Shown: one piece after another, positions 41,780-42,186 of the stretch
Layout of the letters: each line of letters starts with the position of its first letter
Numbering within the stretch: the first letter of the stretch is position 1
DNA from: Iamia majanohamensis
GTDB taxonomy: Bacteria; Actinomycetota; Acidimicrobiia; Acidimicrobiales; Iamiaceae
Assembly (NCBI RefSeq): GCF_028532485.1
Contig: NZ_CP116942.1
Span: 4,154,001-4,218,000 of the forward strand
Direction of reading: 5' to 3'
DNA length: 64,000 bases
Translations under genes and position numbers: made by a program
The notes under the pieces: model-generated
What the model was told of the DNA's origin: nothing
Seen by the model: only the letters and a program-made list of their open reading frames with translations
Database searches by the model: none

Positions 41780-41785
41780 TAGGGT
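41780..41785 (+). promoter_or_regulatory. probable -10 box of the gdx transcript
   Basis: TAGGGT matches the -10 form seen at many genes here. A start about seven bases downstream would put the riboswitch 20 bases into the RNA. No clear -35 is visible. Confidence 0.4.
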
Positions 41786-41811
41786 CGGGGTCGGCTGCGG
41801 GTCCCCGTGGC

Positions 41812-41851
41812 CCCGACGAGGCGCTCCCGTACCGGCCGGCACGACGGGGGC
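41812..41851 (+). promoter_or_regulatory. candidate guanidine-III (ykkC-III) riboswitch upstream of the SMR exporter
   Basis: The 40-base element sits directly before the gdx ribosome binding site (GGAGG, 41853-41857). It has the expected layout: a short 5' strand CCG, the ACGAGG motif, an 8-bp helix (GCTCCCGT at 41823-41830 with ACGGGGGC at 41844-41851), AC, then CGG that pairs with CCG to make the pseudoknot. It closely resembles the Thermobifida fusca guanidine-III aptamer as I recall it. The first helix is weaker here (three pairs). The downstream gene is a typical target of this class. Confidence 0.72.
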
Positions 41852-41865
41852 AGGAGGTGCCCGTC

Positions 41866-42186
41866 GTGGCCTGGATCCTGCTCGTCGCCGCCGGACTGCT
41901 CGAGGTCGTCTGGGCCTCGCTGCTCCCCGAGACCGAGGGGTTCCGGCGCCCGCTGCCCACCCTCGGCTTCCTCGTGGCCCTGGCCGCCAGCATGGCCCTG
42001 CTGGCCGCCGCGACCCGGACGCTGCCGGTGGGCACCGCCTACGCCGTCTGGGTGGGCATCGGGGCGGTGGGCACCGTGCTCGTCGGGGCCACCCTCCGCC
42101 AGGAGGCCACCAGCCCCGCCCACCTCCTCGCCCTGGCCGGGCTCGTCGCCGCGATCGTGGCGGTGAAGGTGACGGCCCCCCACTGA
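41866..42186 (+). CDS. gdx: SMR-family transporter, probable guanidinium exporter
   Basis: Small multidrug resistance protein of 106 aa with four helices. The essential Glu lies in GLLEVVWASLLPETEGF at residue 14, and the Gdx/SugE-type signature PVGTAYAVWVGIGAVGTVLVGATL near residue 58 is conserved. Start GTG 41866 (MAWILLVAAGLLEVVW) has GGAGG eight bases upstream; the frame upstream is longer but is non-coding leader. A likely guanidine-III riboswitch immediately upstream supports guanidinium as substrate. The loop after helix one (LLPETEGF) differs from the KYTHGF seen in E. coli Gdx, so substrate range may vary. Confidence 0.9.
   Translation: MAWILLVAAGLLEVVWASLLPETEGFRRPLPTLGFLVALAASMALLAAATRTLPVGTAYAVWVGIGAVGTVLVGATLRQEATSPAHLLALAGLVAAIVAVKVTAPH

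Follow-up and report, generated by a model that had tools for sequence, protein, structure and literature searches.

A probable divergent guanidine-III aptamer in the leader of a gdx/sugE-type gene of Acidimicrobiales

The short RNA element encoded ahead of an SMR gene in the 64,000-nucleotide stretch of DNA analysed here (the window) is very probably a divergent form of the guanidine-III (ykkC-III) aptamer, which precedes a likely guanidinium exporter gene of the gdx/sugE type, and we infer that guanidine binding turns translation on. A ykkC-III reading had been proposed in the first-pass annotation; it gains support from a covariance model trained without the window, from the leaders of related genes and from compensatory changes among them. 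What that annotation passed over is the divergence itself: the form is missed by the Rfam threshold, its linker is one base shorter, and a C stands in place of the A before G34.

Architecture of the element and its gene

On direct reading, the nucleotides proposed for the element at 41812-41851 are present together with the helix of 8 bp (P2), the pseudoknot helix of three pairs and the single base, A 41852, that separates P2 from GGAGG (Table 1). Residues such as A5, G17 and A35 are numbered as in the T. fusca crystal structure (PMC5696562). One of the eight P2 pairs is a U-G wobble, and U18-A35, G17-C36 and C16-G37 are all in place. The ACGA core (41816-41819), conserved in the class (PMC2864571), is present, as are C6 (41817), G7 (41818) and G17 (41829), which the report of the crystal structure names as ligand contacts (PMC5696562). 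Fourteen bases separate P2 from the start codon of the SMR gene.

Table 1. Positions of the leader features and of the SMR gene, in window coordinates
Feature	Position	Strand	Remarks
Candidate -10 box TAGGGT	41780..41785	+	36 bases before ACGAG; match to the TANNNT consensus only
Pseudoknot helix, 5' strand (P1 of the crystal structure), CCG	41813..41815	+	pairs with 41833-41835
Third strand ACGAGG (A5 C6 G7 A8 G9 G10)	41816..41821	+	C6 and G7 contact the ligand (PMC5696562)
P2, 5' strand, GCTCCCGT / GCUCCCGU	41823..41830	+	includes G17 (ligand contact) at 41829 and U18 at 41830
Joint A19 C20	41831..41832	+	direct reading
Pseudoknot helix, 3' strand, CGG	41833..41835	+	direct reading; pairing kept in relatives
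Linker CCGGCACG	41836..41843	+	its GGCACG has 1 base fewer than the T. fusca GGACAAG; C replaces A33; G34 is 41843
P2, 3' strand, ACGGGGGC	41844..41851	+	A35 is 41844
Ribosome binding site GGAGG	41853..41857	+	separated by 1 base from P2 and by 8 bases from the GTG start
SMR gene, Gdx/SugE type, 106 aa, GTG start	41866..42186	+	Pfam PF00893, 87.2 bits

The likeness to the T. fusca aptamer (RF01763, PDB 5NWQ) extends to the order of the parts, the ACGAGG third strand, the C6/G7/G17 pocket, the A19 C20 joint, the closure of P2 by U18-A35, the loop pseudoknot and the position before an SMR gene. The window's RNA and that of T. fusca (PMC5696562) differ in the pseudoknot, which has three pairs in the window and four in T. 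fusca (nt 1-4 with 21-24); in P2, with eight pairs and C-G at 14-39 against seven pairs; in the linker before A35, GGCACG against GGACAAG; and in the ribosome binding site, which directly follows the base after P2 in the window, whereas it lies 16 nt past the aptamer in T. fusca.

The product of the downstream gene finds its best PDB match in Gdx-Clo (6wk5), a guanidinium/H+ antiporter of the SMR family, at 80 bits and ungapped over 104 residues. E13, W16, S42, Y59 and W62 are kept in this alignment, although the sequence has otherwise diverged, and transport by the window protein is predicted by this likeness. Among 21 NCBIfam models, SugE scored best, although its 100.6 bits fall short of that model's cut-off, 126. 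W16 is described as a conserved residue of Gdx proteins that members of the Qac group replace by Gly or Ala (PMC7695847). Judged from its sequence, the protein is a Gdx-type SMR and likely a guanidine exporter. Two PF00893 matches were found in the genome in all. In the second SMR gene (L172, G000:C1:1888421-1888696), the place of W16, counted from the conserved glutamate, holds an A and is Qac-like there; the riboswitch core was sought in its leader and none was found, which provides a natural control.

Covariance models and recurrence in relatives

The search with the Rfam covariance model that had been proposed as a check bore the claim out in one respect but not in the other: a full-length match to RF01763 exists under a relaxed threshold (41791-41854, +) and tops the 24 places found in the 4.58-Mb genome at E up to 10 (E 0.05; next place 19.3 bits), but its 21.5 bits lie below the gathering score of 36, and the scan of the whole window with Rfam returned no family at or above its gathering score. 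This threshold fails for the group as well, since 14 of the 19 core-bearing loci scored with RF01763 fall short of 36 bits. Five (L049, L050, L051, L056, L062) reach it, and ten more score 24.6-32.0 bits. The other four (L039, L055, L046, L073), which include the window's copy, were absent from a listing that ran to E 1 although they carry the core; L042, a twentieth locus scored, in which the core pattern finds no match, was absent as well. All ten CCG-type SMR leaders of the order stay under 36 bits. In the RF01763 scan of the class, the window copy scored 21.5 bits and a copy in G087 22.3 bits. Sub-threshold places are frequent there (at E up to 0.2, 85 of 395 genomes have one), and most of them are something other than the element: when a loose core pattern was applied to the 30 returned class loci (L009-L038), the element was found in six (L009, L010, L011, L016, L026, L036). 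A core match in L012, with no SMR gene alongside, was left out of the counts.

A model built from the group itself gives a clearer separation. Trained on 13 copies with the window excluded, this model (R1) recovers 41811-41852 at 40.1 bits (E 2.7e-6 over the genome, a rough value), and the runner-up in the genome, without the core letters, reaches 26.6 bits; within the window alone, second place scores 21.9 bits (E 0.00098). As E-values from R1 are rough and too generous in GC-rich DNA, the gap of 13.5 bits is the safer measure. Across 397 genomes of the order, R1 finds 14 places of at least 39.5 bits, of which 13 are followed by an SMR gene and the other by a Rieske oxygenase gene; ten of the 14 belong to the training set, and the copy in G386 is identical to a trained one. 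Searching 396 genomes from the phylum, with places listed up to E 1e-4, adds copies in G811 (51.0 bits) and G993 (33.8 bits), both before SMR genes. Six of the places listed at 33.8 bits or more are untrained and non-identical to trained copies. Five of these precede SMR genes (window, G510, G530, G811, G993), and all five carry C6, G7 and G17; the sixth, in G424 (36.0 bits), does not stand before an SMR gene. In four R1 places of 30-36 bits (L151, L152, L154, L155), the reading frames inspected include no SMR gene, and we judge these places false positives. A separate SMR leader, L150:1338-1380 (-), has a pseudoknot of apparently seven pairs (GCTGCCG with CGGCAGC, by eye) and a shortened 3' strand of P2.

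Alignment of the leaders of homologous genes, another of the proposed checks, shows the same element recurring. We collected 96 SMR leaders, comprising 16 loci from the 15 matching genomes among 198 of the order and, from a scan of GTDB contigs, the best 80 of 412 relatives; one locus, L055, duplicates L040. The core was found in 13 of the 16 order loci, three of them canonical (L049, L050, L051) and ten of the CCG-ACGAGG kind seen in the window; the core pattern was not found in L042, L053 and L054. With the core defined as ACGAG, so that six Arthrobacter-type ACGAC leaders are not counted, 50 of the 96 leaders carry it (the contig part being the best 80 of 412). In every one of the 50, which count one locus twice and contain some identical elements, three or more pseudoknot pairs stay in register, with no pairing filter applied. 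Five Olsenella/Atopobium-type leaders (L074, L078, L087, L096, L134), which presumably represent the class Coriobacteriia, share with the window the ACGAG...GTACC core, the position before SMR genes and, in the two that were scored (L074, 29.8 bits; L078, 32.0 bits), a value below the Rfam gathering score, but they retain the AAG linker and use CTG/CAG as pseudoknot letters.

For the analysis of covariation, 47 copies (45 distinct) were picked by ACGAG...GTAC and at least three pseudoknot pairs, so that agreement in these letters arises by construction and the pseudoknot counts of the alignment are biased. Its covariation score is 0.277, against 0.073 (sd 0.013) in shuffles, none of 500 being as high, and falls to 0.025-0.093 when the register is slid by 1-3 columns. 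A weaker measure, the number of pairs changed on both sides, gives 6 against 4.3 in shuffles and was reached by 33 of 500. The compensatory changes sought in relatives were found in both helices, the pseudoknot and P2. In the 45 distinct rows, pseudoknot pair 2 occurs as GC (25), CG (14), UA (5) and AU (1), and pair 4 as CG, GC, GU and UA, with nine rows unpaired, the window included. Within P2, pair 14-39 is G-C in 26 rows, C-G in 11, A-U in two and unpaired in six; C16-G37 is replaced by A-U in three; the fourth pair, 15-38, is non-standard (C-A) in 13; and the two outer pairs that were counted are unpaired in 21 and 12.

Two sets of leaders differ in P2, one of them in the third strand as well. 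L120, L122 and L132 have A-U for C16-G37 (CAGT with ACTG), in the triplex region, and retain ACGAG. Six SMR leaders from Arthrobacter and Paenarthrobacter (L088, L091, L092, L102, L115, L133) have ACGACGG for ACGAGG along with CAGT/ACTG in P2, which suggests that third strand and stem have changed together.

The short linker and alternative readings

The Rfam consensus expects a GACAAG linker before A35, a form that the GGCACG of the window departs from. In the 47 aligned copies, the linker ends before A35 in AAG (38 copies), ACG (8) or AGG (1). The ACG form comprises the window and seven of the other 46 copies: L011, L026, L036 and L041, which like the window are of the class Acidimicrobiia, and, in another phylum by record name, L071 and L073 (Archangium) and L103 (Myxococcaceae), which we take to belong to the Myxococcota. 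G811, found by R1, likewise has ACG. In all eight aligned ACG copies the linker is at least one base shorter than GGACAAG, and five of them have a 3-bp pseudoknot, a trait also met with AAG (L010). SMR genes follow seven of the eight; the other, L026:1503-1543 (-), precedes an SMR gene split over two frames, by either an assembly error or a break in the gene.

One further copy has a different neighbour. In the Acidimicrobiales genome G220, a riboswitch copy (L167:5569-5613, -) lies before a gene for a Rieske ring-hydroxylating oxygenase alpha subunit (4479 to about 5558). A model built without this copy gives it 42.5 bits; it belongs to the CCG-ACGAGG group, with the usual AAG and not C33. The gene matches PF00355 and PF00848; its nearest NCBIfam model, glycine betaine monooxygenase, gives 135 bits where the cut-off is 670, and in 117 genomes searched, the oxygenase has one homologue besides itself at E 1e-60 or less. 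The Rieske oxygenase is a possible new gene partner of guanidine-III.

Could the short-linker C33 form be a distinct guanidine-III architecture of Acidimicrobiia and Myxococcota, in which the linker would tune affinity or admit substituted guanidines, with the Rieske copy in the wider lineage pointing to an oxidative route for some guanidine compound? We regard this as unlikely. That the fold is the same and the ligand has shifted, the C33 form preferring a substituted guanidine such as methylguanidine over guanidine itself, we judge quite improbable. Such a shift would fit with a linker change common to eight of the 47 aligned copies in two phyla by record name, with the tolerance of the class for methyl-, amino- and ethylguanidine reported from the crystal-structure work (PMC5696562), and with the one copy of the CCG-ACGAGG group, carrying AAG and not C33, that precedes a Rieske oxygenase instead of an exporter. 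However, C6, G7 and G17 are unchanged in the window and in the four other held-out copies found by the model (in the alignment of 47 rows, the selection pattern itself dictates these bases), and the C33 copies keep company with SMR genes, the sole departure being the broken frame after L026.

A decayed riboswitch, its function lost as the 3-bp pseudoknot and the weak Rfam score might imply, is a shade less probable again. The 21.5 bits with RF01763 are lower than the scores of all ten sub-threshold relatives listed (24.6-32.0), and the 40.1 bits with R1 compare with 51-64 for trained members of the order, which are favoured by construction. That contrast is tempered by the held-out copies in G530, G510 and G811, at 39.5, 43.9 and 51.0 bits with R1; moreover, pseudoknots of three pairs are met in five genera of the order, among them that of the window, and also outside the order, while the window copy has lost none of its core bases, forms all eight P2 pairs and keeps its spacing to the Shine-Dalgarno (SD) site and the -10 box. 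To a chance GC-rich hairpin preceding an SMR gene we assign next to no probability: while the match is 81% G+C and sub-threshold, and sub-threshold RF01763 places are abundant in the class (85 of 395 genomes), this reading was rejected on the held-out model score and the covariation, and the unbroken core and the recurrence before homologous genes equally speak against it. The element is thus best described as a divergent guanidine-III aptamer.

Expression platform and meaning of the finding

The guanidine-III class is said to have been validated by Sherlock and Breaker in 2017. Its control is translational, guanidine freeing the Shine-Dalgarno site, with an effect also on mRNA stability, as described in PMC12186494 and PMC5696562. 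In the window RNA, guanidinium would sit between G7 and G17, over C6, and the ligand would lock the third strand into the major groove of P2, as in T. fusca. Binding would switch the exporter's translation on, and the cell, as we propose, would thereby export guanidine when it accumulates. In the ligand-free RNA, the aptamer's own CGACGAGGCGCUCC is predicted to pair with GGAGGUGCCCGUCG, which would mask the ribosome site as far as the start codon.

Folding of the window leader is consistent with such a switch: unconstrained, P2 has a probability of 0.01 and the SD site is mostly paired, and forcing the aptamer raises SD accessibility from 0.24 to 0.48, in folds that omit pseudoknot, triplex and ligand. 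In the same kind of fold, forcing the aptamer brought no general exposure in 45 leaders (those left after dropping L052, L055 and leaders without a clear P2 or SD), accessibility going up in 7 and down in 17. The duplex with the ribosome region was compared with shuffles in 48 leaders with the core and 46 without, setting aside L052, a partial gene match, and L055. In the window, it beats the shuffles (p 0.015 for the third strand, 0.025 for the full 5' strand), but in the 48 core-bearing leaders, complementarity of the third strand is not general (median p 0.445; 8 of 48 under 0.05), and the full 5' strand gives a median p of 0.295, with 6 of 48 under 0.05. A conserved anti-ribosome-site in which GACGA of the third strand pairs with UCGUC ahead of the start codon was therefore rejected, being strong in the window and L048 and not general. 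CGTC near the start is found in 16 of 48 leaders with the core against 4 of 46 without, by a statistic that ignores kinship. As the duplex exceeds shuffles in the window but not in the group, we hold the ON direction from the class, by which guanidine likely turns translation on at the window leader as well, and present the OFF pairing of the 5' strand with the ribosome site as a model-based prediction specific to the window.

Transcription may start close by. TANNNT is the actinobacterial -10 consensus, and the box at 41780 would begin the transcript just before the aptamer. In 49 core-bearing leaders (of 95, the duplicate L055 left out), the density of TANNNT is about sixfold higher in the stretch 25-60 bases ahead of the core than at a distance of 80-290 bases, and 28 of the 49 have at least one such box in the nearer interval. 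Among nine Acidimicrobiales leaders, the box lies at -36 to -39 in seven, the window included, and at -25 in one, and is absent in one.

A guanidine switch before a guanidine exporter belongs to biology that is already established, and our finding is sound and mostly ordinary; what it adds is a recurring form that the Rfam threshold leaves unflagged. Within the literature collection searched, no paper joined Acidimicrobi- with a guanidine riboswitch. The curated threshold of Rfam thus misses a form of a validated riboswitch class that recurs in one bacterial order, a form that supplies natural variants of the linker adjoining the ligand pocket. For the genes of this poorly studied group, the finding assigns both a likely role in guanidine export and a mode of regulation.
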